Of a stretch of 64,000 nt of DNA, positions 4,026 through 63,947 are shown piece after piece. Origin of the DNA: Astropecten irregularis (taxonomy: Eukaryota > Echinodermata > Asteroidea > Paxillosida > Astropectinidae). The first letter of the stretch is position 1, and every line of letters starts with the position of its first letter. The notes below the pieces were generated by a model, which saw nothing but the letters and a program-made list of their open reading frames with translations, did no database searches and was not told the origin of the DNA. The stretch is from contig OZ020258.1 of the NCBI GenBank assembly GCA_963971285.1, positions 15,517,390 through 15,581,389 on the forward strand, written 5' to 3'. Made by a program: the position numbers and the translations under genes.

Positions 4026-4406
4026 TTAAAGGCATACATACAGGATTGGTAAAGGAGACAGAACAGCTGTAGACTGTTCATTATATTATTATCATGTAAT
4101 AAAATCAAACTTGTGAAAACCAGCAAACAAACAGCTTAATAAACCAGATCAAGTCATCATCGGAATCTGTAGAAAACAATGAAAAACGCTCACGGTATTT
4201 TCAAATCCATTCACAGGAGTTTTGATCTTACCCTGAGATCAAAACTGCTTTCGGTCGTTGTTTTACTCATTTCTGGATAAATACAGCATTTAAGATATTT
4301 TAACGGTATGTTTCTTCCATTACCATTTTTATATCCTGAATTGCCTGAAAGTAAATCTGTGCACATTTTTGTTTGGGTATGTTGCCAATCCTGTACTGAT
4401 CTTTAA
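4026..4406 (-). mobile_element. MITE family B, full length, reverse orientation
   Basis: The copy starts with TTAAAGGCATACATACAGG and ends with CCAATCCTGTACTGATCTTTAA, an imperfect terminal inverted repeat. Between them it keeps the family's central palindrome (TTTTGATCTTACC...GAGATCAAAA) and the stretch with GGTATGTTTCTTCCATTACC that all copies share. It has no coding capacity. It is the most diverged full-length B copy in the window. Confidence 0.75.
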
Positions 4407-4720
4407 ATAATACAAGGAATAATAGAACAATATGTTTGTACACATGCAAGGTTATAGTCCATGGTTCATGTTCATATGAAGCAAGCTGTGTACGACATCT
4501 ACTTCACTGTTGCAAACCAATGTGGAAACCTGCATGCTTCCCATGAAAGATTGTGTTTAGGAAAATAAAACTACAAACAATTGAATATGAAATCCTGTTT
4601 AAATTCTAAAACAATGTTATGCCCATTTTCATACTTTTTCTAAAAATTGTTAGTTCTAAGCCAACAGATTTTAAATTTAGATTTTTTGGGGATAAACGCG
4701 ATATTAAAACCAAATGTGTA

Positions 4721-5283
4721 AACAGCGGCAACGACAATGACAACAACGGCAACAGTAATGACAACAACAACAATGACAACGGCAATAACAACGACCGTGA
4801 ATGACAATGACAATGACAATGACAATGACAATGACAACGGCAACAATAACTGCAACAACAACAACGACCGTGAATGACAATGACAATGACAACGGCAACA
4901 ATAACGGCAACAACAATGACAACGGCAACAACATAGACCGTGGATGACAATGACAATGACAACGGCAACAATAACGGCAACAACAATGACAACGGCAACA
5001 ACAACGACAACAACAATGACAACGGCAAAAACAACGACCGTGAATGACAATGACAATGACAACAACAACGGCAACAATAACTGCAACAACAACAACGACC
5101 GTGAATGACAATGACAATGACAACGGCAACAATAACGGCAACAACAATGACAACGGCAACAACATAGACCGTGGATGACAATGACAATGACAACGGCAAC
5201 AAACAACAACGACAACAACAATGACAACGGCAACAACAACGACCGTGAATGACAATGACAATGACAACGATAACAATAATGAT
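4721..5283. repeat. GAC/AAC-type microsatellite array with higher-order structure
   Basis: This array of about 560 bp is made almost entirely of GACAAT, GACAAC, GGCAAC and AACAAC units on the plus strand. Punctuating words such as GACCGTGAATGACAATGAC recur near 4793, 4868, 5037, 5098 and 5240, with GACCGTGGATG variants near 4935 and 5167. A block of about 120 bp beginning near 4839 recurs almost exactly about 231 bp later, so the array grew by segmental duplication as well as by slippage. Long open frames on the minus strand here are by-products of the trinucleotide and hexanucleotide periodicity and should not be read as proteins. Confidence 0.9.
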
Positions 5284-5504
5284 AGCTATTGATACCAACG
5301 CAGGATACATGAATGTTCCTACACGGTTTGATCATACCTTGTAGTAGTCCAGATCTATCGACTTATATGACAACAATAATTGTCAAATCAACATACTATC
5401 CCTAACGGTGGTAACTTTGACATTGTCTGTTGTGTAATGTATTCATATTCCTGTGTCACATTCTCGTCTATTCCATTTCCCTCCCTTTCCTTTATTCGAA
5501 AATG

Positions 5505-5766
5505 AACAAAGACAGTCCGTCTGAAGCGAGATTCGAACCAGCGACCCCTGGGATACCATGAAACAATTCAGAGTGATTTGTTTCATGGCCTCTAACTGAT
5601 AATTGACCATTAGGGACACCGTCAACATAGGGCTGGATAGCTCAGTTGGTAAGAGTGCCGGTACGGCATTCCAGATGTCGCTGGTTCGAATCACGCTCGA
5701 CAATGTTTTTGATTACTTTTCAATGACATATAATTAATCCAGTCAGTTTCCCTTGTGGTTATTTGA
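5505..5766. mobile_element. tRNA-like foldback element (family D), copy 1
   Basis: Two tRNA-like sequences face each other. On the minus strand a B-box-like GATTCGAACC lies at about 5530. On the plus strand, at 5631-5702, there is an A-box-like TAGCTCAGTTGGTAAGAG and a B-box-like GGTTCGAATCA. The element ends with CAGTCAGTTTCCCTTGTGG and TTATTTGAT, which recurs at 47375, 49480 (inverted) and 58039 (inverted). The left terminal repeat is not visible here. The T stem is imperfect, so a working tRNA is unlikely. Confidence 0.6.
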
Positions 5767-5789
5767 TAATTCGTTTTTATCCATTACAA

Positions 5790-7215
5790 ATCTTCCGAAC
5801 ATAAACCTTTCTAGAGCGTCTTTCCTACGTAATATTTTTTATTTTTCCTTTAACAGGTTTGTCTAAAATATTTAATATCAATTGTGTTCTCTTCCCCTTT
5901 TCACATCATTGCCTTCTGTTTGCTGCGTTGTTGTGCCTGTGATAGTTGGCTTGTGAGTAACCCGACAGGACTCCATTTCCTTTTCCCCTATCCAAAGAGG
6001 GCGTTCGTTGTATTGCATGTAAAAAATAGTTCCGTTATAATATAACACATTTCAGTTTACTCAGGTAAGACGTGTTTATCACGTAGCATTTTTGAATACA
6101 ATTTGAACGAGAAAATTCACAACTCAAATGCTAATGATCATTCCTTGAAAATGAAACAAATTGAGGTTCAGTATAGAGCTGTATCCCTTGCTGTATTATT
6201 ATTTGACACAGATAGTCAGACCTACTATTTGAAAGGTGCTTAATGTATCGATCTTAGAAGACTCCTGGCCTTAATTATTCATGCGAGGTTTTTACTTTGT
6301 ACCAACACATCGTGTCATTCCCCATCATGTAGTCCACGGTATATGCAGTTCCTCACGCCACCAAATTGAATCGTTCCATGTTGTCTTGAGTTTATCTCCA
6401 GTATCGACAAATCGAAATGTCTATTTCAACCAAGCGCTCCAACCAAAACCCAGCTTACTCATGCCGGCCTTTTCTATTAAAACAAAACAAGGTGGCAGTG
6501 CACTCAACTTGATGTCGTAGTGCATAATTCCGACCGAGGTCTTAAAAGCCAGCGCATGCCCATCTTTGCCCGTCTTTCGTCTTCTGAAACACGCCTTGGT
6601 CCTCTCATATTTCCGCACCAATCGATCGTCTTGGCAGAGCTGAAGGGAGCGGCTGTGGGTAAATGATAAGATTGTGAGAGCGCGGAAGGCATCTTGTGGA
6701 GTAAATGGGAAAAATTGAGTTGTGGACGCCAGACACATTTCCCTTAATGTACCGGAAGTAGGGACCTACGTTCCCCTGTACGTCCCCGCGTGGCACGGCA
6801 CGTTTCAACAGGCACGGACCGCTTGCTTTCCCGCTCCCTCCGTGCTGAGTGCCGTATACATCCAATCGATAGGTTTGCAGGTCGATGAGCAAATTTTTTT
6901 GGGGAGCAGAGGAGGAAAAGCGAGGTGACAAGATATGCAGCTCGCATTGGATGGAATCAGGGATAGTATCCGGTTTACACATTTAGTGATTGGGTCAATG
7001 CCCAAAGTACGCTCTTTCACTCAATTGTGAAGTGGGTGCCAACCCCGAATAAACAACCCAATAAAAAGAAAATATAAGTGAATCACAATCCCCAGCCTAA
7101 TACCCCCCAAGCCCATTGCATATCCACCGTTATCATATTCAAACAGAAATGGTTGGAGATTAAACATAAACATGACGAAGAAAATTCAAGGACAATTTCA
7201 CCAAGATTTTTTGGT
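5790..7215. other. No recognised gene; GC-richer island at about 6590-6960
   Basis: Most of this stretch has no signature. Between about 6590 and 6960 the base composition rises clearly in GC and several overlapping open frames appear in both directions. None looks like a known protein, and they shadow each other. The island could be a promoter or first exon of an unseen gene, or an old element. Confidence 0.35.
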
Positions 7216-9668: not shown

Positions 9669-10215
9669 CAACTGATGATGTTTGATGTTTTTACCAAAAA
9701 TGCATGTCTATATTATCTAACCGGAAAATAATTTCGATTTTAATTTATCGTGATTTATAAATAAAACATTATTCTACTTAAAAGGCACTATCAGTGTGTC
9801 CCCCCAAAAACCCCGCAACAATTTGTGTCGAGAACCATTATTTTAAAATTAAACTATTTTTCAATTCAAGATTCAGGTGTATGATACAACCATATCTTGG
9901 CTATCAGCATGTAGAATTTGAGCAAAATTTGACTGAAATTGTTGGAAAAAACTAAGACTGAATTACCCAACCTCAAAACCCGATTGTCACCTTTCTTTCA
10001 TACACATTATGTGGGTATTGACCACTTATTCTAGAATACAGCAAATTTGTTTTTAAAGGGTACTCTTTCAATTTGCCATATTTACGTAAATTTCAGCCCT
10101 ATTTTGATTAAATTCTACATGGTAATAGCCAATACATAAATACATCATATACCTGAATCTTGAAGTGATAAACAGTTTAATTTTAACATAATGGTTGCCG
10201 ACAAAGTGTTGTTTT

Positions 10216-10574
10216 TTAAGGGGGCACGCTGTAGTATACAGAAACAGACATTTTCACTGATTTGCCCATAACTGACAGGAATATGAAGATGGTGATGGTA
10301 GAAACATACCGTTAAAAATTCTTCCTAAAATGCTGTATTTATCCAGAAAAGAGTAAAACAAATGACCAAAACCAATTCTGATCTTCTAAAGATAAGAAAT
10401 AACGGTGAAATGACATAAGAAATACAGTGGCTGTTTTTTGCTGTTTTCTCTAAAAGTGGGCACCGTATGGGACTTTAAGAGAGGACTGTTACTGTATCTT
10501 TCTTGATTATGTTTGCCCATGTATCTGTATTTCTTTGACAAAAACAAAGTATGATATTATGATATTACCTTTAA
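10216..10574 (+). mobile_element. MITE family A, copy 1
   Basis: The left terminus is degraded (GTAGTATACAGAAACAGAC), but the interior matches the family: GATGGTGATGGTAGAAACAT, TGCTGTATTTATCCAGAAAA, and the central TTTTGATCTTTTAAAGATC-like palindrome. The right end is intact, ending AGTATGATATTATGATATTACCTTTAA with a short local duplication. It has no coding capacity. Confidence 0.75.
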
Positions 10575-13283: not shown

Positions 13284-13556
13284 TTAAAAGTAAAATACAG
13301 GATTGGTAACGCACCCAAACAGAAATCTTCACATATTTACGTCTAACTTTCAGGGTATGAAGGTGGTGCCGGTAGAAACATACCGTTAAAATATTTCCGT
13401 CTGAAATGGTGTATTTATCCAGAAATTAGTAAAACAAAGACCGAAAACAGTTTTGATCTCGGGGTATGATCAAAACCATTCTTTATGTTTATAAGAAAAA
13501 TGATATGGTTTTTCGCTATTTTCTCGTGACTCAGATGTCAGATTGAGCTCAATTAA
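13284..13556 (+). mobile_element. MITE family B, copy truncated at the right end
   Basis: It starts TTAAAAGTAAAATACAGGATTGG and carries the B interior (CTTTCAGGGTATGAAGGTGG, AACATACCGTTAAAATATTT, GAAATGGTGTATTTATCCAG) and the central TTTTGATCTCGGGGTATGATC palindrome. It stops after GATTGAGCTCAA. The normal right end with CCAATCATGTATTATACC is missing. Confidence 0.75.
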
Positions 13557-13879
13557 ATTTAGTGTCAGTGCTGTATTTTGTCAATTGTCGTATTCACAGC
13601 AAGAATCCTAGGAACATTTCCACAAATATTAGAATACTACAATACTTCACTTTATATGATCTTCTGTACATGTGCTGTACTGAGAATTGATACATAAACA
13701 CCACAAGGCCACCTTCTAGAGATAATAATGGAGGTAAAACAGATCGTGATATAAGAAGACATTTTCAGATTATGGATTCAAGTCACCATAATCTGAATTG
13801 ATATGAAGGTCGTATGATGTCGGTGGAGTATGGTCAGACTGTTTGGTCAGGATACATGATGTAGTGTGCTAGCTCCATG

Positions 13880-19137: not shown

Positions 19138-19503
19138 TTAAAGGTACAGTACAAGACTGGTAACATATCCAAACAGAAATGTTCACAGATTTATGTATAA
19201 TTTTTAGGCTATGAATATGGTGATGGTAGAAACATACCTTTAAAAAGTCTCCAGCTGAAATGCTGAAAAGCTGAAATCAGTACACAAAACAACAGCAAAA
19301 ACAGTTTTGATCTCGAGGTAAGATCAAAACCATTTTTTATGTTTTATGAGAAACAATTGAGTTAGGTTTTTACTATTTTCTTGTGACTCAGATGACAGAG
19401 TGAGCTCAAATTTTCACAGGTATATCATTCCATGTACATGTTGGATTAGACAAAGAGTGAGTGCTGTTCTGTGACCTTCACCAATCAAGTATTTTACCTT
19501 CAA
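19138..19503 (+). mobile_element. MITE family B, full length
   Basis: It starts TTAAAGGTACAGTACAAGAC and ends CCAATCAAGTATTTTACCTTCAA. The interior shows the B pattern, including GGCTATGAATATGGTGATGG, the TTTTGATCTCGAGGTAAGATC palindrome and GTGAGTGCTGTTCTGTGACC. It lies 121 bp from a family A copy in the opposite orientation. Confidence 0.8.
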
Positions 19504-19624: not shown

Positions 19625-20145
19625 TTAAAGGTAATATCATACTTTGGTTTTCGTCAAAGAAATGCAGATTCTGGGGCAAAAATATCAAGGAAGATACAGT
19701 AACAGTCATCTGTGAAAATTGCAGATTGCATACATAAAATGGATCAGAGGATATCCATTTTATGTATGGATCAATTTTATGTATGCTTCCTTCATTTGCA
19801 CGTTCGTGTATTTTGTCATTCAGCCTTTGAGAAAGATCCTGCTAGGATCGAAACGCGTCAGGCCCTCTTAACTTTAAGCATTTGATATATTTCAGGTCAT
19901 TTTGGCTGATGAGCAGTTTGCAGCAGTTTATTACTTGTATTTCTCTTTTATTTTTTATCTTTAAAAGATCAAAAATACTTTGGGTCACTGGTTTTACTCT
20001 TTTCTTGATAAATACAGCATTTCAATCAGAAACATTGTAACGGTATGTTTCTACCATCGCCATCTTTATACCCTGTAAGTTTTAAGTGAATCTGTGAAAA
20101 TTTCTGTTTTGGTATGTTAATACCAAAGTGTGATATTACCTTTAA
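19625..20145 (-). mobile_element. MITE family A, interrupted by about 220 bp
   Basis: Both termini are intact: TTAAAGGTAATATCATACTT at the left and GTGTGATATTACCTTTAA at the right. The A interior breaks near 19721 and resumes near 19940. The inserted part holds a 16-bp-arm hairpin of ATCCATTTTATGTATG (about 19729-19768), the ribozyme-like motif at 19822-19872, and TGATGAGCAGTTTGCAGCAG, which recurs inverted at 44277-44300. Confidence 0.75.
19822..19872 (+). ncRNA. Hammerhead-ribozyme-like motif, copy 1
   Basis: The order is AGCCTTTGAGAAA, then arm GATCC, loop TGCTA, arm GGATC, then GAAACGCGTCAGGCC. The outer GCCT can pair with AGGC. The hairpin followed by GAAAC resembles stem II plus the GAAA core of hammerhead ribozymes found in Penelope-like retroelements. 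The other half of the core (CUGANGA) is not matched exactly, so activity is doubtful. Confidence 0.35.
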
Positions 20146-24598: not shown

Positions 24599-24917
24599 TT
24601 AAAGGTACATTACATGATTGGTAACATACCAAAACAGATGTTTACAGATTTACGTATAACTTTCAGGGTATGAAGATGGTGCTGGTAGAAACATATTCTT
24701 AAAATATTTCCGCCTGAAATGGTGTATTTATCCAGAAATAAGATCAGTATTCTTTATGTTTTTATAAAAAAAATTGAGTCGGGTTTTCGCTTTTTTCTCG
24801 TGGTTCAGATGTCCGATTGAGCTCAAATTTCCACAGGTTTATTATTCCATGCCATTGATTGGATCAGACAAAGTATGAGTGCTGTTCTGTGACCTTTATA
24901 AATCATGTATTATACTG
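24599..24917 (+). mobile_element. MITE family B
   Basis: The left end is intact (TTAAAGGTACATTACATGATTGG) and the interior is typical (TTTCAGGGTATGAAGATGG). The central palindrome is shortened, and the right end stops at AATCATGTATTATACTG without CTTTAA. It lies about 120 bp downstream of the LINE. Confidence 0.75.
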
Positions 24918-24919
24918 TC

Positions 24920-27900
24920 GTAGAAAAATTCGTTTCATAAGACTCGTTCAAAGAATGGAAAATATTGAAATTAATCATATCCATTCTGTTATCTACCCAA
25001 GTTTGTCTTTGTTCTTTTTATTTTCAAAATGACCACTAAAATTTACCAGATCGTCATGAATACGCACAAGCAATAATGAAAAAAAAATTGACAAAGGACA
25101 CATGTAGTGAAATACACACTGACTAGACAACTTCATACCACAATGCTTACCATGTTTAACGTGGCAATTATTGCAGAGATCTTAATCAATTGTTTTGATG
25201 GGGCAAAAAAAAGACATTTCTTTTTGGCAGCAAATTCTTAGTTTGTTTGCCTCGTCTGCGTTCTCGCACTAGCTGTCCATGCAGTGTTGTCATTTGTTCA
25301 CCGCTAGTTTGAGACAGTTTTAGGCACTATTTTGAAATTGTATTACATTTATAATAATTTTACGAATGCACTTTAAGAACCAAGAACAAATGAATATTTC
25401 AAAGGACAACGACAGAGGGTTTAACCTACTCCCTTATTTGATTTAAGTTAGAATGACTTGAGGAATATTTTGAACTAATTTGCTGTAAATATACTGTCTG
25501 ATAATCCATCACAAAATCTAAATTCCATGAAAGAAACACAAGAGGATTTGTAACTAAAAAAGTGGATAACCTTTTATAGTCCAGGAGATTGGAGGTCAAT
25601 TACCAATGTATTGAGGAATTAGTATAATATTCGTGACTAACTGGACCAATTCACTGTGCAGGGAATAGGACGTACACATTCCGTTGTAATTAGCGAAGGA
25701 AACTGTACAATTGACTGCAATTCTTAAGGTCTGAGGATAGAGTGAAACTGACGCAGATATTGATTCATGACACAATCTACTCGTGCTATCATCATGAACC
25801 TTTATCTGTACTAAATAATGCCTTTGAGGATGTTCCCTCTACTGACGTCATCACATCAGTGTCTAAGATGAAATTGAGATGACGAGTTCATATGGCGTGC
25901 GTAGGCCTACCTACATTGCATTGTGTGCTTTACTTACAATGCTGCGATGCAATGCTTCTATCAGAATCCGCAAAGGTTACGATCCTTAACCAGCTGTTCT
26001 TGGTGGGCAATGGCCAGGAAGGCTGCTTCGTTTCATCCCAACTGACCAGTCAAGACAACCTTAAGACCCCTCGTCACTAATTAAAACTTCTATCATACTG
26101 CACTCGACCATCGCCTCAAGGACGTGACGTGATGGCGATATATTTAAATTCCAAGGGCATTTGAATTCATTCAAATTGAGAGTCTTACAAGAGAGTGGTT
26201 ACAATGTACGTGATTTACAGTCAGTTTTGATCAAGCTGGACAACAAAGACACGGGTGAGCTCTGTCTATTGTCAAGAAATATAACACTTCCAAGGTAAAA
26301 TTGTACGTTTGTCATCTCAGGCTTGCCTCCCACGCACTCCTACATACATACTAACCCTTAACCAACCTATTCGGATCATCGCTTACAATGCTTACATAGC
26401 AATGTTTAACTCATTTTCTTTGACTCAGTAAATGCCGCTACAGACTACTCCAACTACTGCATAGCCTTGCTCAAGATCAAAGGCATTCAGGTTGCCCGCG
26501 CTAACCGTCAATATAACACACTGTGCACTGAACAATATGCAGAGCAAAATAGACCTGGAATGAATCCTATAAATATATAGTTTGTGGTTTCAATGGGTAG
26601 TTTAGGAGTTGTGCTCATTATGCTCATGATCTAAGCTGACCTTAGCATGTCTTCTTCTTGTTTGGTATTTAGAGACATTTTTGAAATTCTTGTATACCGC
26701 AACGATCCGCCCAAAGTCAAATACTACCAGCATGGTTTGCATATGCATGCAAGCTATACTCCAATGAAACCTGCTTACAAATTTTGTAAAGAAAGTTCAG
26801 ATTTCAGGTTAGAACTTAAGCAACACGAGATCTTTGAACGACAATCAACGTAGAACTGTCGCATTTCACTGGAGTTTGGAAGTAGGAGTAGATTGTGTGA
26901 TGTTGTGGTTAATCATGGTTTGATTACAGCATCCAAATATAGTCCCGTATACACTAATACGTAATCACATACGACGTCATGTGCTACTAAATACGTGCTA
27001 AAAAGGCAAGAGTAATGTATAATATGAATAAATAAATAATTATATACAATCATTAAAGCTGAATAAAATATTGGCGTTGCGACTACACCTAACGATGGCC
27101 AATGCCATAAGAGGCAATTTACAGGCAATCAATCCACAAGAAATGGCATTCAGCTTTAAATCTTCATATAATTTGCCTGGGGATTACAGTGAGAAGATAT
27201 CAGAAAAATGATGTATGTACGAGCAAGGTTCTCCTCTTGCATGCATTGTAGTTGGTTGCCTCCAATGTACGAATCACCTTGTGAAACAACCCAGCACAAA
27301 CGCATCTTACTTTGTGGTGCTTAAAGTATGTCGTATAGGAGACATATTTACTCTACGAGTATTCTCCGGATTGGATACGGGTCCAACCTGAGTCAAAGTT
27401 ACTGACCTTTTAACACTGTATGATTTTAACACAATGTGGACCCGTGTCGAAAACTAACTCTACTCTTGAAGTGGGTTAAGAGCTGTTAACCCGTGTTGTG
27501 AATGTGAGCACGTGTTGAAAGTGGGCGTTTGTGTAATATCAAGATGGCGCGCAACGGTTTGGTGTGGTTGCAATCTCCCCAATGCATGACATGCATGTTT
27601 AGTACATTGTACATGGTTGTTCCACACTGTACGATCCGGTATAGCGCCACCAAGCATCAAGAAACATTAGAGCGGGAAAGTGAATACCTTGAGGCAGTGT
27701 TGGGGTGACTCAACCCTCAGCCTTCTGGTTCAATGCTTCCAAGTCTCAGCACCTCACCTCATCCTGAAAATTAGTCATAATTGTCTTACATGGCATCTCT
27801 TTAATACAACCGTAGAAATATTTTTGCCGACTGATTGGAAACCAGTCGGGTGTACGTGTGCTTCCTCAGCCTCAACTTATTGAATTAAGACAATCAATTT

Positions 27901-40342: not shown

Positions 40343-41215
40343 TTAGGGCTTTTCTACACACTGTTGACATGAACTTGCATAGGAGTTCTTAGTGACCCCA
40401 ACTGTCTGTCGAAGGGCTGGTGATATTGATGATACACTGCGTGATGATGGGAATGTTGGGACAATAGATGACTGCCCAGACGATGGTGTGATCAGGTTTG
40501 TATCGTTTGTAGGTGTGGTCAGGTAGCTTGGAATAGGATAACCACTGAAGAAAGGTGTAGTAGGTGGTGTGGATATGTGAATCTGAGACTGATAATTCAC
40601 CATTCTCTTCATCTCATCCAGGGCATTTGCCTGCATCAGTATATAATTCTTGGCAAGAAGGAGAGTTGCAATCTTAGAAAGTTTCCTGACGGAAGGACCA
40701 TGAGCATATGGAATGACAGAGCGCAGATCGTCCAAAGCGTCATTCAGATCGTGCATACGGCGACGTTCTCTTGAATTTATGCTTAATCTATTTTGCTTAC
40801 TCGATCCCTTCCCTGTGGATTTGAAAGTCCCAATTTTCCCAATCATTCGCTGTTTGGGTTGGATGGCATCCCCGTCATCTTCTACATCTGAAGGTTCAGT
40901 GGGCTCGCGAGATCTCGCGATGTCTCTCCCATCTCTGGAAATGCCATGATGGATTTCATCCGAGTCTGTTGAAGATGATGAATTTTCGTCTGAACAACTT
41001 TCCCGATAGCCAAAAAGATGGTGATGTACGGAGCGTTCTGCACCCACCACGGCCCCCCAACGCACGTCATCCGTCTTCACGGGATTGTCAATCATTCTGT
41101 CCAGGGGTGATGTCATGGTTGTATGACGAGGTGTATTTGAAGATTCTGACACACTGATAACCTTTGACCTTTCTCCTACACAGCTGTAATGTCCATAGGT
41201 CTTGTCCTGCGACAT
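40343..41215 (-). CDS. bhlhe22/23-like: bHLH transcription factor, BHLHE22/BHLHE23 (Beta3/Oli) group
   Basis: This is an intronless gene of 290 codons. The bHLH domain covers residues about 141-205. The basic region reads [16 protein letters not shown], with the Glu and Arg residues that contact the E-box. Helix 1 and the loop read [20 protein letters not shown], and helix 2 reads [20 protein letters not shown]. The loop and helix 2 match vertebrate BHLHE22/23 better than Olig, which has a KINSRERKRMHDLN-type basic region and LARNYILMLT. Residues 71-120 are acidic and Ser-rich, and the C-terminus is rich in Pro, Ser and Thr. The start is supported by an in-frame stop nine codons upstream. Family members are nuclear E-box-binding repressors in neural differentiation. 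Whether this is the single invertebrate orthologue of both vertebrate genes is an inference. Confidence 0.93.
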
Positions 41216-41835
41216 GTAAACACCAGTCTTGCAATCAACTGATTACTTACGAAGAGAGTTCACTCGATCATTTCGAACATTTTCTCCTCTCAAATTAAAG
41301 TCGGGTTGATGACACAACAGTGCATGAATGCTGGAGCGGGGACAAAATTCATCTCAAAGCATTTCGATGTCCAGTATGATGCATTCTGCATTGCAGGTCA
41401 TTCCCCTTCGACCTTTACTAGATTCTGTCAAACGGACGTACTTAGTTTAAATGCAAATGAAATGCATTTCAGCACATAAAGTAAATCGAACAGAACATTT
41501 GAAAAGTCTCTCCTCCAAATGAAGCAGTTTTAAGTGAAACACCGTTGATCCTAAGTACATCCGCACAATCCAATGAGTTGCTGAAGTCCCTGGCGCACCT
41601 ACAATGCTATGATGCAGCCAATTCTTGCTTTGTACATGTATGATGCGGATCACGAAACTTGAGCCGTAGACGAACGTGTTGCATCAACGTACCGCCACTG
41701 GGACACGGGACTTCTGACCATTATTGAATTTGACCATCAAAATCTCGTCAAAGGACACAGACAGTTGAGCTAGCCCTTGGTGAGGAGCAGACTGCCGCTC
41801 AGACCTCTTCAAGTTGCTTTCCCCCTCAGTCTTAG
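41216..41835 (-). other. Probable 5' UTR of the bHLH gene
   Basis: It lies between the TATA box and the start codon on the minus strand. It holds no exon of its own that I can support. A frame from an ATG at 41851 sits almost on the TATA box, so it would be upstream of the expected transcription start. A GTAAGT occurs about 30 nt before the start codon, but no matching acceptor pair is convincing. Confidence 0.4.
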
Positions 41836-45535: not shown

Positions 45536-45542
45536 AAAGGCT

Positions 45543-45589
45543 AGCCTTTGAGAAAGATCCTGGTGGGATCAAAACGTCAGGCCCTCCTA
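45543..45589 (+). ncRNA. Hammerhead-ribozyme-like motif, copy 2
   Basis: The order is AGCCTTTGAGAAA, arm GATCC, loop TGGT, arm GGGATC, then AAAACGTCAGGCCCTCC. The G of the GAAA core is A here, which would be expected to abolish hammerhead activity. It abuts a family A fragment directly. Confidence 0.35.
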
Positions 45590-45889
45590 ACAATACAGTA
45601 ACAGTCATTTGTGAAAATTTCAGTCCTATACGATGCCCAGTTTTTGAGAAAACTGTGAAAAACGGCCGCAATATTTCTTAAGTTTTTTCTCTTTTATTTT
45701 TGATCTTTTTTAAAGATCAACAAGATTTTCTGTCGTTGTTTTACTAAATTCGGGATAAATACATCATTTCAGGCGGAAAAAATTTAACTGTATGTTTCTA
45801 CCACCACCATCTTCATATTCTGAAAGTTTTACGTAAATCTGTGAACATTTCTGTTTTGGATTCTTACCAAAATATGATACTACCTTTAA
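45590..45889 (-). mobile_element. MITE family A, truncated at one end by the ribozyme-like repeat
   Basis: It begins inside the family at ATACAGTAACAGTCATTTGTG and runs to the normal terminus ATATGATACTACCTTTAA. It contains the TTTTGATCTTTTTTAAAGATC-type centre. The first 60-70 bp of the element are missing, and the ribozyme-like motif occupies their place. Confidence 0.8.
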
Positions 45890-46433: not shown

Positions 46434-46799
46434 TTCAAAAGGTAAAGTACAGGATTGGTTACATACCCAAACATAAATGTTGACAGATTTACGTATAACT
46501 GTCAGGATATGAAGATGGTGATGGTAGAAACATACCGTTAAAATATTTCCGCCGGAAATAGTGCATATATCCAGTAATTAGTCAAACAAAGACTGAAACC
46601 AGTTTTGATATCGGGGTAAGATCAAAACCATTCTTTATGTTTTATAAGAAAAATCAAGTTGGGTTTCGCAATTTTCTCGTGACTCAGATGTCCTATTGAG
46701 CTGATATTTTCACAGGTCTTTTATTTCATGAACATGCTGGATCAGACAAAGCGTGAGTGCTGTTCTGTGAGCTTTACCAATCATGTATTATACCTTTAA
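46434..46799 (+). mobile_element. MITE family B, full length
   Basis: It runs from TTCAAAAGGTAAAGTACAGG to CCAATCATGTATTATACC and TTTAA. It is close to the family consensus, including GATATGAAGATGGTGATGGT, the TTTTGATATCGGGGTAAGATC centre and GTGAGTGCTGTTCTGTGAGC. Confidence 0.85.
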
Positions 46800-49660: not shown

Positions 49661-49773
49661 GGACCGGAACCGTTATTGGGACGTCACTTCCAAATTCTGA
49701 AATGACTAAAGTGATAACAGGTTTTTATACAGGTAGGCCTACAGGAGTATTTTACTATTATCAATTTTGCTTG

Positions 49774-49820
49774 GAGTTAGGAGAGCCTGACGCGTTTCGA
49801 TCCTAGCAGGATCTTTATCT
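49774..49820 (-). ncRNA. Hammerhead-ribozyme-like motif, copy 3
   Basis: On the minus strand the sequence is AAAGATAAA, arm GATCC, loop TGCTA, arm GGATC, then GAAACGCGTCAGGCTCTCC. The GAAAC block and hairpin are identical to copy 1, while the 5' side is diverged. Confidence 0.35.
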
Positions 49821-50237
49821 TTATTTTGTTGAATAAGAAAAACAGAGAGGAAAAAACAAAACAACATTTGCGTACGGTACGCATTGGCCATGACCCCCCC
49901 CCCCCCCCTGTACGCATGGTGTACGCATCTGTGCCACCCCTTCCCTTTCGTGCATACTTACTTTATGGACGGTCCTATAGTCCTATGTCCTTATAGTTAT
50001 AGACGCGTTGAGTTCATCAAAATCAAATATTTGCACAGGAATGAACAATTGTAAATGTATATCTGCTCAAAACGATGGTCAATAGATTCCAGCCACAAGT
50101 GTTCAAGTTCCACACTGGACACATTTCGGAATTGGTTAACATCCCCATTCACCTTACACTATTACAATAAACCTACATACGCTATACCTATGAAATTTGT
50201 GGTCAAGTTCTATTACTTGGCTTTTCTTCACCCATTA

Positions 50238-50514
50238 TCAAAGGTAGCATACCGAAACAGAAATCTTCACGGATTTACCTATAACTTACAGGGTATAATT
50301 AAAATGGTGATGGCAGAAACATGCTGTTGAAATTTTTCTGCCCGAAATGCAGTATTTACCAAAAAAAAGAGTAAAACCAATGACCACATTTTTGGGGGAT
50401 CTTTTGTGACACGATTTAAGAAATACTGTGACCGTTTTTCACTGTTTTCTCAAATATTTTGGTCTTTAAATCTGCAGTTCTCTGACAAAAATCAAAGTAT
50501 AATTTAACGTTTAA
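50238..50514 (+). mobile_element. MITE family A, internally shortened
   Basis: It starts TCAAAGGTAGCATACCGAAA, lacking the ATCATACTTTGG part of the terminus, and ends AATCAAAGTATAATTTAACG. Interior deletions remove most of the GTGGGCACCGTATGGG stretch. Confidence 0.75.
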
Positions 50515-52660: not shown

Positions 52661-53034
52661 TTAAAGGTAGTATCATACTTTGGTAGAATACCGAAACAGA
52701 AATCTTCACAGAATTACCTATTAATTTACCTATAACTTACAGGGTATAATGATGGTGATGATAGAAACATACTGTTAACATTTTCTGCCTGAAAATAGTG
52801 AAATGCTGTATTTATCCAGAAAAGAGTAAAACCAATCATCAAAAAGCAATTTTGATCTTTTAAAGATAAAAAACAACGGTGAAAAGTCTTAAGAAATACT
52901 GTGGCCGTTTCCCCCCGTTTTCTTCAAAAGAGGCCACTGTATAGGGCAGGGAATGTCACAGATGACTGTTACTATATCTTCCTTGATATTCTTGTCCACG
53001 AATGTTTGACAAAAACAAATGATATTACATTTAA
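52661..53034 (+). mobile_element. MITE family A, full length
   Basis: It runs from TTAAAGGTAGTATCATACTT to AATGATATTACATTTAA. A short local duplication (ATTACCTATTAATTTACC) lies near 52710. Confidence 0.85.
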
Positions 53035-53550: not shown

Positions 53551-53917
53551 TTAAAGGTAATATCATACTTTGGTTTTTATCAAAGAAATAAAGATTCTTG
53601 GGCAAAAATATCAAGACAGATACAGTAACAGTCATCTGTGAAAATGTCAGTCTTATACGGTGCCCACTTTTTGAGAAAACAGTGAAAAACGGCCACAGTA
53701 TTTCTTAAGTCGTTTCTCTTTTAATTTTTGATCTTTAAAAGATCAAAAATAATTTTGGTCACTGGTTTTACTCTTTTCTGGATAAATAAAGAATTCCAGG
53801 CAGCAAACTTTGAACGGAATATGTTTCTACTATCACCATCTTTGTACCGTGTAAGTTATAGGTAAATCTGTGAAGATTTCTGTTTCGGTATGCTACCAAA
53901 GTATGATACTACCTTCA
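53551..53917 (-). mobile_element. MITE family A, full length
   Basis: It runs from TTAAAGGTAATATCATACTT to AAGTATGATACTACCTTCA. It lies about 520 bp from the previous copy in opposite orientation, so the two can form a long inverted pair. The centre holds the palindrome TTTTGATCTTTAAAAGATCA. Confidence 0.88.
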
Positions 53918-54351
53918 GCCAATCGGCTACATACACAAGTAAACATATTGTTTATCTAAATTTCTTTTTAATAACGCAAAAAGGGCAAAACATTTGTCTT
54001 TAACTGAAGTCTAAAACAGATATCATATTTGTAATTATTCACTATTTACACCCAATAAGCTCTGACAATTATTAATCAATTAATATCAAATCATGTGTTA
54101 GCGAAATGTTTATTATTTTGAATAAATAAGCAGGTAGAATAACACAAATAAAAATAACATTCTTAATTCATATTCTATAAGATTCAACAACGATGCTACT
54201 TTCCACTTGGTTGTCAATGATTTAAATACCACAGGATTTAAAGGTTTGTTCTGTACAATTATTCCCGCCAATAATCTCAAAACAACTTGCGTGCTGTGAA
54301 TTTTGGGGCGGAGTTTATGTTTACTATAATAATTACATTTACGTATCCATT

Positions 54352-54650
54352 GGCGTAGATCACGGGGGTGTGGGGTGTGGGGTGTGGGGTGTGGGGTGTG
54401 GGGTGTGGGGTGTGGGGTGTGGGGTGTGGGGTGTGGGGTGTGGGGTGTGGGGTGTGGGGTGTGGGGTGTGGGGTGTGGGGCGTGGGGCGTGGGGCGTGGG
54501 GCGTGGGGCGTGGGGTGTGGGGTGTGCTACACCCCCAGGTTTTCATTTTTTATACATAAACAAAAATGTATTTGTGGGATTTTGTGCACAAACGTATATG
54601 GAAGTACGACCCAGCTACAGGATCATACCCCCAGATCTGAGGACGTGTCT
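54352..54650 (+). mobile_element. Short repeat family E, copy 2, with expanded G-rich core
   Basis: GGCGTAGATCACGGGGG at the left, and CCCCCAGATCTGAGGACGTG at the right, match copy 1 at 9540-9668. In copy 1 only six G follow CACG. Here a heptanucleotide array is in that place. Confidence 0.6.
54364..54526 (+). repeat. (GGGGTGT)n array, about 23 units, with a GGGGCGT block
   Basis: Near-perfect heptamers GGGGTGT run for about 160 bp. Five consecutive units near 54478-54512 carry C in place of T. Runs of four G every seven bases make the plus strand a strong G-quadruplex candidate. Open frames across it in several phases are artefacts. Confidence 0.95.
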
Positions 54651-55781: not shown

Positions 55782-58700
55782 CTGTACATTGACACACAAA
55801 GTTTAGTTTGCAACAGAACGCCAAATAATTGGAATCGAAAGAACTGATATGGCTTAAAGGTTATTTCGGTTGAGGCATAGGCACTTTACGAAATAACGGC
55901 TTGGGCTCCGTCTTCTAAAAGCTGAATATACATGTTGTGTTTTTCCCCGAGGTTGAAGCTCCGTTTTCTTGTTCGAAACAGAGTATCTACTTCGAAACCA
56001 GAACCCCAACCCCCCCCCTCTGTTTTGATACCTGTTAGTTTAAAATGGATGTAAGAAATGGAGCCGAAGCCGTAGCTGGTGCCCAAGCCGAGGTTTCGTA
56101 AACGCCCATATATAGAGAATTTTGAAATACAATGACCTTTTCACAACAATATGCAAAGGGCGTTGCACTTGCAGTGAAGCCTACTTATGAAGGCAAGTGT
56201 AACATTTTCCCTTTTCTGTTTTATTTCGTTGTCGTTTTTGTTTTATTTACTAAAGGTTTGGGTTATTAGTTTGCTTGTTTATCGTTATGCAAAGTGCCTA
56301 CCGAAGAGTTCCTTGACCTCTTGTTTTTCAATGTTGTGTGGTGGTCCAGAGAAAACATCATGGGGAACCTCAAAGACATCCAGTAGGTAGCGACTATCAG
56401 GCTTCATAACATTGGTGACAATGTCATGGTATCTGCAGATGAGTCAAATACACATGATAACCAATCATTCCATTCTCATTCCAGAAATTGTAGGCCTATC
56501 AGATGAAGAAGTTTTGATTGTGTCGCATTTTGGCGGTAAATAATCGCGATCATTTGTGTCCATACATGGAAAAAAAACCCCGGTTTTTGAATCGCGAAAC
56601 AAATTGCGAGTCATATAATCGCGATTATTTGTGTCAACACATAATTTAAAAAGCCCGGTTTTTGAATCGCGATGCAAATCGCTAACCAAATAAGAAACCA
56701 CTGTCACGCAATCACGTTTTGCTAATTGCTTATTCCTATATGTCAGGGAAGCTCAGTCTCAGCGAAACAGCGTCCTGTATGCACACCATAGAATGCATCG
56801 CTATGGACGACAATGAACTTCAGAATTACATATACAGTTGTACATACTATTCTAAAAGGAAGACAACACAAATATATGAAATCAAAGCATTTTAGCCAAC
56901 GAATGTAGAAAGTTTGTTTATGTAGCGAACGAAATCATTGCATAATGTAAAATTCCACTTCTAACATTTTAATTAAGTAGTCTTTGTTCTTATTTTTTGC
57001 GAATAAATAGCTAGGTCGGATATTCATTAACGTTTTTGTTAAAACATTTATCTCAATAAATCCTTAGTGAATATTTTCGGCCCATGTAAAAAAAGAAGTT
57101 TGAACTTATCCTACCTCTTCAAATTCAAGTAATTCACTAGTATAAATGTATACCGTTTTCCCTTACAAATAGGGGCTATATGTGTCTTCAATTGTGTCTC
57201 ATGGAAACAGCATTTGCCAAGAAATTACCTCTTTCTGTCTGCAGGATTGATTGCCGCCATTGAGCCTCGATCCCAAACGCAGTCAAATTGTCCAATGAGG
57301 GCGCCAGACAGTTTGAAGAAGTCTGTACAGTAGATGGTGATATTCTTGTCTTTTGCCTGTTCAGACCGTTAAACGTACAGTACAGGATTGGTAACATTCA
57401 CAAACAGAAATGTTCACAGATTTACGTATAATTTTCAAGGTATGAAGATGGTACTGATACTGTTAAAATACTTCCGCCTGAAATGGTGTACGTGTATTTA
57501 TCCGGAAATTAGCAAATAAAAGACCGGAAACAGTTTTGGCCTCATGGTAAGATCAAAATCATTCTATATGTTTCATAACAAAACTTTAGTCTGGATTTTG
57601 CTAGTTTCTCGTGACTTAGACAAAGTGTGGTTGCTGCTCTTTGACCTTTACCAATCATGTATTTTACCTTTAAACATGAACAATACACAATTTGCCAGGG
57701 TCAGGGTGTCACTTTGATTAACCTTAGTATGGTAACCGACTCCATGACTCATATAATCACACACTGAGCATACTGTTAACATTGATGTTGGTCAATTGGT
57801 CTGTGAGTCAGTCAGATTAATTTGGGCCGTGAACAGACAAACTAAATTCCATAGAACCATGTGTGTGTTTTCCGTGAAGAAAGAGCAAAACTTAAATATA
57901 TTGTGCATTGTTAATTTTTATGGCTTAGATGCCAAACATGGAATGGGCGACTTCTGCACACCTTAAGTAGGTTTTATGTTAGATTTTCCCCATGGTGGCG
58001 CTGTGACACCAATCATGTCTTATAATTATGTACTGATCATCAAATAACCACAAGGGAAACTGACTGGATTCATTCTAAGTCATTGAAAAGTGGACAAAGA
58101 AAAATAAACTGGAGCGGGATTCGAACCAGCAACCACTGGAATACCGTACCGGCAGTAAGTGAGTGGTTTCATGGCTTCTAACTGCCAAACGAACAAAGGA
58201 TTATTGACTATTAGGGACACCACCAACATAGGACTGGATAGCTCAGTTTGTATTCAGGTGGTCGATGGTTCGAATCCCGCTCCAGTCAATTTTCTATGTT
58301 AACTTTTCAATGATTTCATGATATTAGATGTGAGAAAGTGCCTGTCTGTCTACCTTGTACACCAAACCACCAATATCCTTTAGTGGTTCTGTAGTATATT
58401 CTATGTCATGTTCTGTGAAGAACTGTTTCACTCCAAGTTCGACCAGCTCACATCCAACAACGCTACAGCCTTTCTCTAAAAGCCTGCAAAGGGTTGATAC
58501 ATAAAAAGTGAGACTGATGAATGAACAAATCATTGCCTTTTCAGCCATTGATCTAATGTATTACAATTCTGTTCATTAGGGCGCCCCTTTTTATTACTGT
58601 GGTTCTCATTTCCGACCGACCCATATTTTGGGCTCCAACCGAAGAAAAGAACAACCTTTTTTTGCCGCCGACCCTGTCCAGAATGACATAATATCAATTC

Positions 58701-60628
58701 AAGAAAAAAAAAAAAATCCACAATTTCGGAAACAAATGTTGCCAACAGGCCTACATTTTTATACTTTCTATCACAGAAATAATAAACAAATATTCAAACG
58801 AGATTAAAGTGAATACAATGAATATTTCTCATCATTTTCTTTAGGTTTTTGTGTATTCAGACATATTTTTTTCCACCAAACCTTTTTTTTCCGACCGACC
58901 GACCCTCCCTCAAGGTGAACAAGAAATGAGAACCACAGTTACAGCGACAGTCTTCCTTTAATACGTGAATGTGTCGATGTCTTCTTATATTATGTCTACA
59001 TAGTATTGCATATGCAATACTATGGTTACCCGAAAGCTAATATTTAGTGTGCAATGGAACACGGTTAAGGGTCATGCACAACTTTTGTAACAAACCAAAA
59101 AAGAAAAGTTTACAGATAAAAAATTATACGTATAACTTTCAGGATATGAAGATGGTGGTGGTAAAAACATACCCGTGAAATATTTCCGCCTGTATTTATG
59201 CAAGATCAAAAATCCTTCTTTATGTTTTATAAGAAAAATTGAGTAGATTTCCCCCTTATTTTCAAGGGACTAAGATGTCCGATTGTGCTCAAAGCTTTCA
59301 CAGGTTATCATTTCATGTACATGCTGGATCAGACAAAGTGTGAGTGCTGCTCTGCATGTGACCTTTATACGAACGATTCCCCCCAGGCGCGGTTCTAGAG
59401 CCAATACCTTTGGGGGGCTAGAAGAGCCATTTTTGGGGTGGGGGGGGGGGGGGGGGGGGGGGCTGGAAGACCCCCCCCTAGAACCGCGCATGGTTTCCCC
59501 TTCTAACGGTAAATGAATAAAGAGATTGTGTACAGGAATTATTAAGTGATATTTACCAAATCATGTCGACTGATTTCCCGCAAAGTGGCACAAAAAATCT
59601 CGGTGCTTCTTTCTCTTCTGACAGTCTGTCGAAATATTTCTTCAGCATACTGGTAAATAAACACAAGATCGATAACATCATTCATTTGCCTTCTGATTAA
59701 TATTACCGATTACACGAACTATTGTTCAAAGTAAGCTACAAACGGGAATGTAGTTTATAAGACAGAAAATATATAATATCATGACGGACTTGCAGTTATG
59801 GACACACACAGTATTGAATTTGGCTGATTGTTCCATGACTTCAGATTTCGATTGTGGGGGAAAAGGAAGAATAAGATATTTTTATGTGGCGACCCAAGGC
59901 ATACTTTCCCCTAGTGGTCTAGCGTGTCGTATAGTAGGCCTACTCAAGATCTCGTGGTCAATCTACAGATTGTGGGTTCGAATCCAGCCATGGCCGTATG
60001 GTGCTTGCGTCCTTGGGCAAGACGCTTTGTCACATATTGCTCCTCTTCATCCAGGTTTGGCCCAATTACCAGGGATGATAATAATGTGCGCCAAGATTGT
60101 CTTTGGACAGATGTGTGCGCCGAATAAATTCAGAATTATTATGAATTATTATAAATTTACATAATAATTTGAGTTATTGAATTTTAAAAATAAAAGGTCA
60201 ATGCTAGCGAATTAAATTCAAAGAGGGATAATTATAAAAACTTACGCATGAACCTGCGTCTTATGGAACCTAGTTTTTCCTCTTTCCCACTTGACTTTCC
60301 AGCCTTCTTTTGTGACGTAACCATCAGATATTTCACCGTCTTGGTTTCTTCTTAATGCCTCAGTAATAGCTTCATCTTTCTTTGCGTCCTGATGGCCATT
60401 CTCAGCTATCGTAACTGTCCCATTGCTGCAAGTGGTGGCGCTCTTCCTTCTTTCCGTAGTCTTTGTCGTCACATGCACTCCGTTAGTAGCTGTGATGGTT
60501 GTCTGGATGTCGTTGATCTCAGCAGACGAATGATTGGTTGGGGCGAGTTTGATTCTCTTTGCACAGCTACCGTTCTCGTCGCCCCCGTGAGAGAAACAGT
60601 TCTCGAGGGGTGCAGCTATTGTGCTCAT
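55666..60628 (-). CDS. TPMT-like: Thiopurine S-methyltransferase (TPMT) family protein, six coding exons
   Basis: Joining the minus-strand exons 60246-60628, 59557-59649, 58354-58483, 57229-57356, 56302-56432 and 55666-55781 gives 981 nt, or 326 residues plus stop. Every junction is GT-AG and in phase. The family core begins near residue 108: EGWKVKWERGKTRFH, then VPLCGKSVDMIW (148-159), VVGCELVELGVKQFF (167-181, with the acidic residue expected to bind the SAM ribose), FDCVWDRGSMAAINPADR (226-243) and the C-terminal WGVTYFYENVFLLT. Human TPMT is 245 residues, so the first 80 or so residues, which include KRIKLAP, are an extension. The family transfers methyl from S-adenosylmethionine to sulfur (or, in bacterial relatives, tellurium and selenium) and is usually cytosolic. 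The natural substrate is unknown. Confidence 0.92.
55885..56102. mobile_element. MITE family C, copy 2, in the last TPMT-like intron
   Basis: The termini are TTTACGAAATAACGGCTTGG (left) and, inverted at the right, TTTACGAAACCTCGGCTTGG. Its reverse complement matches 7400-7630 across the interior (GTAGATACTCT, GAACAAGAAAAC). Here the ends have only single GGAGCC-like words, so the expansion at 7.6 kb is secondary. A 66-codon open frame inside it is not a gene. Confidence 0.75.
56302..56432 (-). CDS. TPMT-like: TPMT-like exon 5
   Basis: It encodes YHDIVTNVMKPDSRYLL to EKQEVKELF, with acceptor CATCTGCAG and donor TTCG|GTAGGC. GPPHNIEKQEV corresponds to the human GPPFYVPHAEI stretch. Confidence 0.9.
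56543..56693. repeat. Tandem dimer of a 75-bp unit in a TPMT-like intron
   Basis: Two head-to-tail units share AATCGCGATNATTTGTGTC and CCCGGTTTTTGAATCGCGA. The units themselves are partly palindromic (ATCGCGAT). They probably derive from an inverted-repeat element. Confidence 0.7.
57229..57356 (-). CDS. TPMT-like: TPMT-like exon 4
   Basis: It encodes AKDKNITIYCTDFFKL to INPADRK, with acceptor TGAACAG and donor AG|GTAATT. The WDRG motif is at residues 230-233. The acceptor has a weak pyrimidine tract because a family B MITE starts 10 nt upstream of the AG. Confidence 0.9.
57369..57673 (+). mobile_element. MITE family B at a splice acceptor of the TPMT-like gene
   Basis: It runs from TTAAACGTACAGTACAGGAT to CCAATCATGTATTTTACC and TTTAA. 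Its left end is 10 nt from the AG of exon 4. It is somewhat shortened (GGTAGAAACATACC is missing). Confidence 0.8.
58039..58318. mobile_element. tRNA-like foldback element (family D), copy in a TPMT-like intron
   Basis: It begins ATCAAATAACCACAAGGGAA. A reversed tRNA-like half (GGAGCGGGATTCGAACCAGC) lies at 58111, and a forward half at 58231-58290 has GGATAGCTCAGTTTG and GATGGTTCGAATCCCGCTCC. The two halves are inverted copies with outer arms ACTGGAGCGGGATTCGAACC and its complement. The middle holds CATGGCTTCTAACTGCC, shared with 5580. Confidence 0.7.
58354..58483 (-). CDS. TPMT-like: TPMT-like exon 3
   Basis: It encodes LLEKGCSVVGCELVELGV and on to GGLVYK, with acceptor TTTGCAG and donor AAG|GTAGAC. 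It forms the second strand and helix of the methyltransferase fold, with the acidic residue after VVGC. Confidence 0.9.
58596..58939. mobile_element. Harbinger-like MITE with TTA target duplication
   Basis: Terminal inverted repeats CTGTGGTTCTCATTTC and GAAATGAGAACCACAG are perfect over 16 bp and are flanked by TTA on both sides. Three-base TWA duplications are typical of PIF/Harbinger elements. The interior has CCGACCGACC repeats and no transposase. It lies in the second intron of the TPMT-like gene. Confidence 0.75.
59090..59386 (+). mobile_element. MITE family B, degraded
   Basis: The left terminus is lost, but AACTTTCAGGATATGAAGATGG, AGATGTCCGATTGTGCTC and ACATGCTGGATCAGACAAAG match family B. 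The right end is broken near 59370, where the hAT-type element follows. Confidence 0.7.
59394..59492. mobile_element. Short hAT-type MITE, 99 bp, with a G23 run
   Basis: The ends CAGGCGCGGTTCTAG and CTAGAACCGCGCATG match the element at 13880-14178, with one change in the right end. The flanks ATTCCCCC and GTTTCCCC agree at 6 of 8 positions. A run of 23 G lies at 59440-59462. Confidence 0.75.
59557..59649 (-). CDS. TPMT-like: TPMT-like exon 2
   Basis: It encodes MLKKYFDRLSEEKE to LCGKSVDMIW, with acceptor TTTACCAG and donor TTG|GTAAAT. LLKKHL and LCGKAVEMKW are the human counterparts. A hAT-type MITE lies 65 bp downstream in the next intron. Confidence 0.88.
59910..60165 (+). mobile_element. 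tRNA-derived SINE in TPMT-like intron 1
   Basis: The head has TAGTGGTCTAGCG and GTGGGTTCGAATCCAGCC (A and B boxes separated by a small insertion). The body follows, with GTGCTTGCGTCCTTGGGCAA and GACGCTTTGTCACATATTGC, and then an AT-rich tail. The CCTTGGGCAAGACGCTT block is, from memory, shared by many SINEs of marine invertebrates. It is inserted antisense to the gene. Confidence 0.7.
60246..60628 (-). CDS. TPMT-like: TPMT-like exon 1 (first coding exon)
   Basis: It encodes residues 1-127 and two bases of codon 128. The ATG at 60628 is in a CACCATGA context. The same frame stays open upstream to 60745, but a pyrimidine tract ending TTTGCCTAG at 60670 looks like a splice acceptor, so the exon probably begins at 60669 with a short 5' UTR. 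The donor is GC|GTAAGT. The extension is polar and Thr/Ser-rich, with a basic KRIKLAP near residue 24. Confidence 0.8.
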
Positions 60629-61752: not shown

Positions 61753-62110
61753 TTAAAAGTAGTATCGTACTTTGGTAGCATACCAAAACAGAAATCTTCA
61801 CAGATTTACCTATAACTTAGAGGGTATAAAGATGGTGATGGCAGAAACATGCTGATACAATTTTCTGCCTAAAATGCTGTATTTATCCAGAAAAGAGTAA
61901 AACCAGTGACCGAAATTATTTTGATCTTTTAAAGATCAAAAGTAAAAGGGAAAAGACTTAAGAAATACTGTGGGCGTTTTTTTACTGTTTTCTCAAAATG
62001 TGGGCACCGTATGGGACTCAAATTTTCACAGATGACTGTTAGTATCCTCCTTGGTATTCATTGCCCATGAATCTACATTTTTTGACAAAAACCAAAGTAT
62101 GATATCACCT
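61753..62110 (+). mobile_element. MITE family A, full length
   Basis: It runs from TTAAAAGTAGTATCGTACTT to AAGTATGATATCACCTACG. The interior is close to consensus, with the TTTTGATCTTTTAAAGATCA palindrome intact. Confidence 0.85.
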
Positions 62111-62114
62111 ACGT

Positions 62115-63370
62115 TTGAAAGTTGGTTTGTTCACGTCAGCAAGCAAGTGTAAGTAGCTTTAGGTACCTTTTTGTAACCGTGCAAACATTTTAAGAAAAGG
62201 TTGAATTATTTTGTTGTTGTAAAATACACTGATAAATCAAACTGCATAATACAGCATTGTCACTAACATGATTGTTTATGGTGTGTGGCGGTGAATACAT
62301 TGTTTGAGTCCGGATGCATGTCAATATTGGTGTTATATGATGGTTATGCTGGATGACTGCAGATTTGTGACGATATATTGATGCTTAGGCCTATTGCTGA
62401 AGTTCATATCGATTCATTGTGCAACTGCCTCCTCGAATAATAAGCCTAATGCGTGTGCAGGAAAATGCCATGATGTGAAAAGCGATATAAACAAGGACCG
62501 TGGAGAATATTGCTCAATATTAGTGACGTAATGCCGATGCCTTTAATGAAGACGTGGAGAAAAGATAAACGAGATGTCTCAAATTAATGACCTCTGAAAT
62601 TATAATGACTCCTATCGCAGTAAGTTTTCATGGGATGATATCAATAATGTTGACACTCTTTCTGCTGTGACGTGCTGTTCTCGAGATCGACGAGAACAGC
62701 GCACCTCATTGGACCATGAACACATCAAGCAGTTGTCAAAACAATAAGCCAACACCAAAACAATTTCTTACATTTTTCTTACTATCATACAATGGATACG
62801 TTTCGGTGCGGTACAGCTATTGCCACGGGCGCCATAGACACAACAGAACAACAAATTGAAGCAAATTTAATTTCGGCATTCTAACCAGTACACAATAACC
62901 AGCCACAAAATCAATATATGCGTAGGATATACCCACAACACTCAGCCTTATAGACGCCAGCAGTATAGTAGTAAGACAGCCCAGCTGCTGCAGTTAGGGA
63001 ACCACGTACTAATAAGTATTCATCCATCTGCCACTTACTTCCCTTTAAAGGATAACTGCGGGTTTGAAACAGCATGGAACTTGAATTTCAAGAAATATTC
63101 ACTTGTTTTGTTGCACTGGTAAGCTTTACACTCCATCTATTGTGTTATATGCTGTGTCATAGTCGGATGTGGTGTTTACTTGGGATGAACTAATTGTACA
63201 AATGTCTGAGTGGCAGTTTGCGGTTAAACTTTAATTGAATCAAGGTTCATATTTCGTGTTGAACATCTAGAAACGGAACTTCAATCATGAGTAAAAATCG
63301 CGTGTCGTCGTGGTTCCGGATTTTATTCAAAACCAAGCAATATTACCAAATAAATACTAAATGAAATACT
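62115..63370. other. No recognised gene; short hairpin at 62674-62700
   Basis: No exon is recognised. GCTGTTCTCG (62674-62683) and its inverse CGAGAACAGC (62691-62700) form a 10-bp stem with a 7-nt loop. Confidence 0.4.
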
Positions 63371-63371
63371 T

Positions 63372-63424
63372 AGAGTTAGGAGAGCCATGACGTTTCGATC
63401 CTTGCAGGATCTTTCACAAAGGCT
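63372..63424 (-). ncRNA. Hammerhead-ribozyme-like motif, copy 4
   Basis: On the minus strand the order is AGCCTTTGTGAAA, arm GATCC, loop TGCA, arm AGGATC, then GAAACGTCATGGCTC. The outer AGCC can pair with GGCT. It lies about 70 bp left of a family A MITE. Confidence 0.35.
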
Positions 63425-63491
63425 AATTATGATTCAGCATTTTATACCAGGCGAAATGGAGGCTAATGTAGGCAGGTTGCTGCATGACCAC

Positions 63492-63947
63492 TTAAAGGTA
63501 GTATCATACTTTGGTAGCATATCGAAACAGAAATCTTCACAGATTTACCTATAACTGACAGAGTATAAAGATAGTGATGGTAGAAACATACTGTTAATTC
63601 CTTTTCTGCCTGAAATGCTGTAGTTTTCCAGAAAAGAGTAAAAATAAAAGAGAAAAGACTTCAGAAATACTGTGGCCGTTTTCCCATGTTTTCTCAAAAA
63701 GTGGGGCCCGTATGACACTGGCATTTAAAGAAAAGACTATTACTGTATCTTCCTTGTTTGATTTTTTGCCCATGAATCTTTATTTCTATGACAAAAACTA
63801 AAGTGTACTGCGGCCGTTTTCCAAATGTTTTCTCAAAAAGTGGGCACCGTATATGGGACTGATATTTGCACAGATGACTGTTACTGTATCTTCCTTGATA
63901 TTTGTTGCCCATAAGTCTGTATTTCTTTGACAAAAACCAAAGTATCT
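63492..63947 (+). mobile_element. MITE family A with internal tandem duplication
   Basis: It starts TTAAAGGTAGTATCATACTT. The right half is present twice, at about 63670-63803 and 63808-63947; each has CTGTATCTTCCTTG and a final GACAAAAAC(C)(A/T)AAAGT. The last copy ends at AAAGTATC without ACCTTTAA. Confidence 0.8.

Follow-up and report, generated by a model that had tools for sequence, protein, structure and literature searches.

How can two families of short repeats be alike over one half of their length and strongly different over the other? The question is raised by a stretch of 64,000 bp from the starfish Astropecten irregularis (contig OZ020258.1, positions 15,517,390 to 15,581,389; hereafter the window, part of a 475.7-Mb genome on 168 contigs, from which the loci labelled L were also taken). 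A first-pass annotation had proposed here two sister families, A and B, of miniature inverted-repeat transposable elements (MITEs), piggyBac-like in their target site and with modules swapped between them. Profiles of both families were run over the window with nhmmer, each place being given to the better-scoring profile, and this search returned the proposed counts, 11 copies of A and 8 of B, from 4026 to about 63945, whilst the best match across ten shuffled windows had E = 0.057. The 19 copies occupy 6721 bp (10.5% of the window), and the end motifs, common interior motifs and TTTTGATC/GATCAAAA palindrome described by that annotation were all present in them. The likely explanation, in our view, is that three families, A (with subfamilies A1 and A2), B and C, consist of modular, non-autonomous Kolobok-type MITEs of 365-375 bp, and that their lineages have swapped left interiors with one another.

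Both the A and B consensus sequences (365 and 366 bp including TTAA) open with TTAA and AGGTA and close with TACCT and TTAA. The ends of A are of the type TTAAAGGTAGTATCATACTTTGGT, with TTAAAGGTAATATCATACTTTGGT as the inverted end, and those of B are TTAAAGGTACAGTACAGGATTGGT and TTAAAGGTATAATACATGATTGGT; the 375-bp consensus of C starts with AGGGA, and all three share AG...CT termini. With lengths of 365-375 bp, end repeats of about 20 bp, many copies and a consensus devoid of transposase, A, B and C are MITEs. Copies of A and B are 83-95% identical to the consensus of their own family, and we therefore regard both families as old.

Across the left interior (B positions 25-172), A2 and B agree at 138 of 148 sites (93%) and A1 and B at 89%. 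On the right, agreement between A2 and B falls to 41/75 (55%) in the proximal part and 16/42 (38%) in the distal part, where A and B range from 38 to 40%; their end repeats match at 11/20 and 12/20 positions (55-60%). The reported sharing of one interior half is thus evident, but the other half does not differ completely as had been claimed: stripped of palindrome and end repeat, the right halves of A and B still align (local score 43 against a shuffle mean of 22.4, standard deviation 3.9), a score reached by 0/1000 shuffles, which rules out total unrelatedness. Only the distal ~50 bp showed no detectable homology (483/1000 shuffles as good). Outside that distal part, the right halves appear to be distantly related.

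Family C was first met as two odd matches to B and was rebuilt from eight genome copies (L049-L056). It appears to be young and homogeneous, pointing to fairly recent transposition in this genome; the eight copies are among the best of 40 scored out of 1406 candidates, which makes their divergence of 1.3% a lower bound. B and C agree at 61/75 right-proximal sites (81%), at 24/42 distal sites (57%) and at 16/20 (80%) and 14/20 (70%) positions of the end repeats. On the left, B and C agree at 86/147 sites (59%), and the identity of C to A and B there is 59-64%.

The affinities of B are therefore reversed between the two halves. Counting site patterns with the centre (173-225) excluded, sites uniting A2 with B outnumbered those uniting B with C by 52 to 1 on the left, against 15 to 50 in the right half and end repeats (Fisher p = 1.5e-18); with A1 in place of A2, the left gave 39 to 3 and the right half with end repeats 15 to 49 (p = 3.3e-13). 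The best segment of B spanned 31-176 with A2 and 27-222 with A1, each unequalled in 200 permutations in comparisons with single C copies. A second contrast lies within family A. The initial division into subfamilies A1 (24 copies) and A2 (15 copies) relied on sites of the left half, a choice biased towards a difference there, and omitted 15 of the 54 A pieces as intermediate or short. A re-split by clustering on each half used the 41 A pieces that have both halves. The left half yielded one group of 16 and one of 25, with consensus sequences that disagree at 15/140 sites on the left versus 1/136 on the right (p = 3.7e-4); at 13 sites, B-like states numbered 0-2 in 24 of these copies and 5-10 in the other 17, and right-half clustering set a single outlier apart from 40 copies. 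Given this clustering, what A2 and B have conserved, the left half, is exactly where A1 and A2 part. Such opposing patterns would not be expected from a constant difference in rate but would be from exchange of the left module, so that the third-family and subfamily comparisons both favour the proposed swap. The low similarity of B to C on the left, nearer to that of A to C than to that of B to C on the right, weakly suggests that B took its left module from an A-like element. One B-type copy (4026-4406, minus strand, TTAA at both ends) looks itself like a mosaic, with a B-like left half and a right half whose pieces most resemble A copies, a divergent copy in L043 and B ends.

Left modules were also followed through a pool of 305.6 kb, comprising the window and other stretches of the genome; it includes matches of an earlier search, is not random, and was freed of eight loci repeating others (L001, L029-L035). 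Among its 70 left-module matches, 50 continue into an A right half, 14 into B, two into C and one into a further type, F, while two have none and one is cut by the end of its locus. The F type (L026:431-870) combines the shared left module with the end repeat TTAAAGGCACTATTATACTTTGGT and a different right half, which was taken from the same copy that it then matched, so that the single F match is the defining copy; nested within this right half there seems to be an inverted-repeat element.

Several points weigh against exchange. With three families and an unrooted tree there is no conflict of branching, the argument rests on branch lengths, and strong rate shifts in opposite halves could mimic the pattern. 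Mismatch to the own consensus is similar in both halves of A (10.7% left, 11.9% right), but in B it is higher on the right (9.3% left, 14.3% right). Within A, distances in the left half are not clearly linked to those in the right (Mantel r = 0.14; 102/1000 permutations as high), which fits exchange and proves nothing. On the left-half tree of the window copies, monophyly of A is not rejected (approximately unbiased test, p = 0.43), which is also consistent with A, B and C having arisen by simple divergence, the left interior being kept for a cis need in transposition while the right halves drift. A direct repeat, GAAATTTTCACAGAT, found in both halves of the window A consensus (3/1000 shuffles as good; 37/1000 for B), hints at binding sites that could impose such a need. 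Nevertheless, we think this account unlikely, since the left half is conserved between A2 and B but changed between A1 and A2 and between B and C (where the right-proximal part is the better kept), and one constant constraint cannot yield both. Alternatively, A and B might each have arisen by internal deletion from a different autonomous element, the two parents having a common 5' region from which the left half was inherited. A single step would then suffice for the shared half as well as for the differing ends, but it leaves unexplained both the A1/A2 pair, with the same right half and ends and a different left, and the mosaic right half of the copy at 4026; the remaining homology between the A and B right halves also counts against two separate parents, and we judge such an origin improbable.

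To which superfamily the elements belong turns on their target site and termini. Both ends could be placed in 34 of the 48 near-full copies of the pool, the 14 without placeable ends being left out; TTAA flanks 29/34 on the left, 26/34 on the right and 21/34 on both sides, and beyond it six compared positions agree in only 8-11 copies. All eight fetched copies of C have TTAA on both sides. The TTCA reported at one end of some copies is present in a B copy (46434-46799, plus strand; left TTCA, right TTAA). When flanks were joined across the element, 5 of 38 sequences gave matches across the junction, 10 matches in total; no unfilled site emerged for 17 of the 19 window copies when their joined flanks were searched against the window alone. 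The element at L010:7081 sits inside another repeat, four relatives of which (L014, L038, L002, L011) lack the element and carry a single site, whilst further matches in L025 and L026 are ambiguous at the junction; another, at L014:2067, is inserted in the TTAA that ends a B copy. Together with the TTAA flanks, these single, TTAA-like unfilled sites bear out the proposed TTAA target, probably as a 4-bp duplication. The details do not all agree with this: the single site in the four L010:7081 relatives lacks one base of the joined TTAA, the unfilled window relative of the site entered by the A copy L014:3560 (35578-35681, plus strand) reads a single TTGA at the junction, the match of L037:510 is weak and reads CTAA, and the sequences would be identical had only 2 bp (TA) been duplicated by elements with AAGG...CCTT ends. 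Neither a transposase nor an autonomous element was met in the sequence examined, and there is no result from a genome-wide search aimed at one.

A TTAA target would in itself suit piggyBac-type MITEs, as the first-pass annotation had suggested. The termini of piggyBac elements are usually CCY...RGG, a type absent from the A, B and C consensus sequences, and we consider this affiliation very unlikely. TTAA duplications are likewise characteristic of Kolobok, which is set apart from piggyBac by its 5'-RR...YY-3' termini, according to the description in PMC9587614. The AG...CT termini of A, B and C agree with this definition and, beside TTAA, fit the Kolobok superfamily and not piggyBac. Kolobok transposases are described as DDE enzymes with THAP and H2CH motifs (PMC6004289).

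The closest described likeness is to the T2-MITEs of Xenopus, Kolobok elements with a TTAA target and end repeats starting AGG, more precisely AGGRR (PMC6004289). C (AGGGA) matches that motif; the termini of A and B read AGGTA, and these two families are hence not classed as T2-MITEs. According to the same source, T2-MITEs form many subfamilies, 16 of them major in X. tropicalis, and predominate in the genome, and an internal segment of one member, Xmix, has expanded into the repeat family Xstir; an exchange of halves with its changeover near a central palindrome, as proposed here, was not met in what that source describes of T2-MITEs. KolobokP also shares the RR...YY termini, but is described as carrying long direct repeats (about 450 or 660 bp) at its termini and as coding for a transposase and a nuclease (PMC9587614). 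The consensus elements of 365-375 bp have none of these, and in lacking long terminal direct repeats they differ from KolobokP.

The central palindrome occupies the same position in A2, B and C, with arms of 13 bp in A2 (167-192), 10 bp in B (167-193) and 14 bp with one mismatch in C (166-193), where the sequence differs on both arms. No shuffle out of 100 was as good for A2, B or copy C2, and 6/100 were for copy C1; among single copies, a palindrome score of 9 was reached in 15/45 central windows versus 1/90 flanking windows. The A1 consensus lacks the left arm, in part owing to the search that brought in many copies, whose query was a window copy without it. Folded as single-stranded DNA, one A copy gave z = -6.2, as its end repeats and palindrome predict. 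Fold-back between the two halves was rejected (49/1000 shuffles as good for A, 870/1000 for B).

We posit that a Kolobok-type transposase supplied in trans would bind the ~20-bp end repeats, cut the element out and insert it at TTAA with duplication of the four bases; the TTAA flanks and unfilled relatives support the outcome of this step, the enzymatic part being conjectural. The modules would then be ordered as end repeat, left interior of ~150 bp, central palindrome, right half and end repeat. The opposing similarity patterns suggest that left interiors were exchanged between lineages, with one changeover probably close to the end repeat (about 25-31) and the other at the palindrome or slightly past it (about 176); gene conversion, or repair of an excision gap templated by a related copy, may have been the route. 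A palindrome acting as a changeover hotspot is a hypothesis only. More tentatively still, and with some doubt on our part, the palindrome (about 166-193) might have repeatedly re-joined halves of different Kolobok-type families, swapping the end repeats, and so the transposase, while the interior was kept.

The remaining window copies vary in completeness. Those of A with TTAA at both ends lie at 31703-32085 and 52661-53034 (both plus strand) and at 19625-20145 (minus), the last enlarged by an internal insert. Other A copies are found at 61753-62118 (plus), 10215-10574 (plus, left end repeat decayed), 53551-53918 (minus, left CTGA and right TTAA), 38391-38746 (minus, left interior partly B-like) and 50235-50514 (plus, internal deletion). 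A copy of the A2 type (45590-45889, minus) has the A end repeat and right half with a B-like left interior, its right end being cut and replaced by other sequence. The last A copy (63492-63943, plus) lacks the palindrome, and its right half is duplicated in tandem (139 bp x 2). Among the B copies, that at 39380-39741 (minus, TTAA at both ends) is nearest to the consensus; others lie on the plus strand at 13284-13642 (right end decayed; its palindrome, GTTTTGATC...GATCAAAAC, at 13450-13476), 19138-19503, 24599-24923 (internal deletion at the palindrome), 57369-57673 (TTAA at both ends, internal deletion) and 59065-59368 (decayed ends).

Tandem duplication of an A right half was observed in the window (63668-63943), at L003:1863 and L005:1866, and in three units at L038:782-1075; these start near the same position, and the query that found those loci was itself such a copy. 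An A right half without a left half (33983-34175, plus) abuts a 30-bp minisatellite (32843-33981, about 37 units at 96%). Derivation of this minisatellite from the MITE was rejected, the best of four comparisons scoring 23 against a shuffle mean of 18.1, with 46/500 as good. Another repeat, of the GCAGGATCTTTCTCAAAGGCT type, lies in or beside several A copies (19822-19889, 45542-45591, 49770-49816 and about 63400-63450). End-repeat-only elements were not in evidence, with four matches outside copies in the window versus 0-6 in ten shuffles; one of these, at 58008, resembles the B right end. The window also holds an open reading frame with a helix-loop-helix domain (PF00010, E 1.4e-15; 40343-41242, minus), another with a reverse transcriptase domain (PF00078; 23106-23999, plus), probably the remnant of a long interspersed nuclear element, and a (GGGGTGT) x 23 tandem array with 98% matches (54365-54526).

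Beyond the window, twenty 10-kb stretches from 16 contigs, chosen by hand at round coordinates and not by a random generator, contained 31 pieces that make up 4.34% of bases; 23 of them fell to A and the other 8 to B, although two of these 8, at L023 and L026, are family C. Such pieces were present in 11 stretches and absent from 9. An A query gave 11425 candidates in the genome, of which 40 were scored, most thus being left unscored. Exact-pattern scans of virus and prokaryote contig collections gave no matches. No account of an exchange of halves between MITEs, or between Kolobok MITEs, was found among titles and abstract openings of the open-licence literature, which is weak evidence of absence.

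At their share of the sampled bases, A, B and C elements may rank with the more abundant repeats of the genome. If left halves have indeed been traded between lineages, family trees built from whole MITEs would mislead, and such elements could switch transposase partner while retaining their interior. The presence of young C beside old A and B in one genome makes the exchange hypothesis testable.

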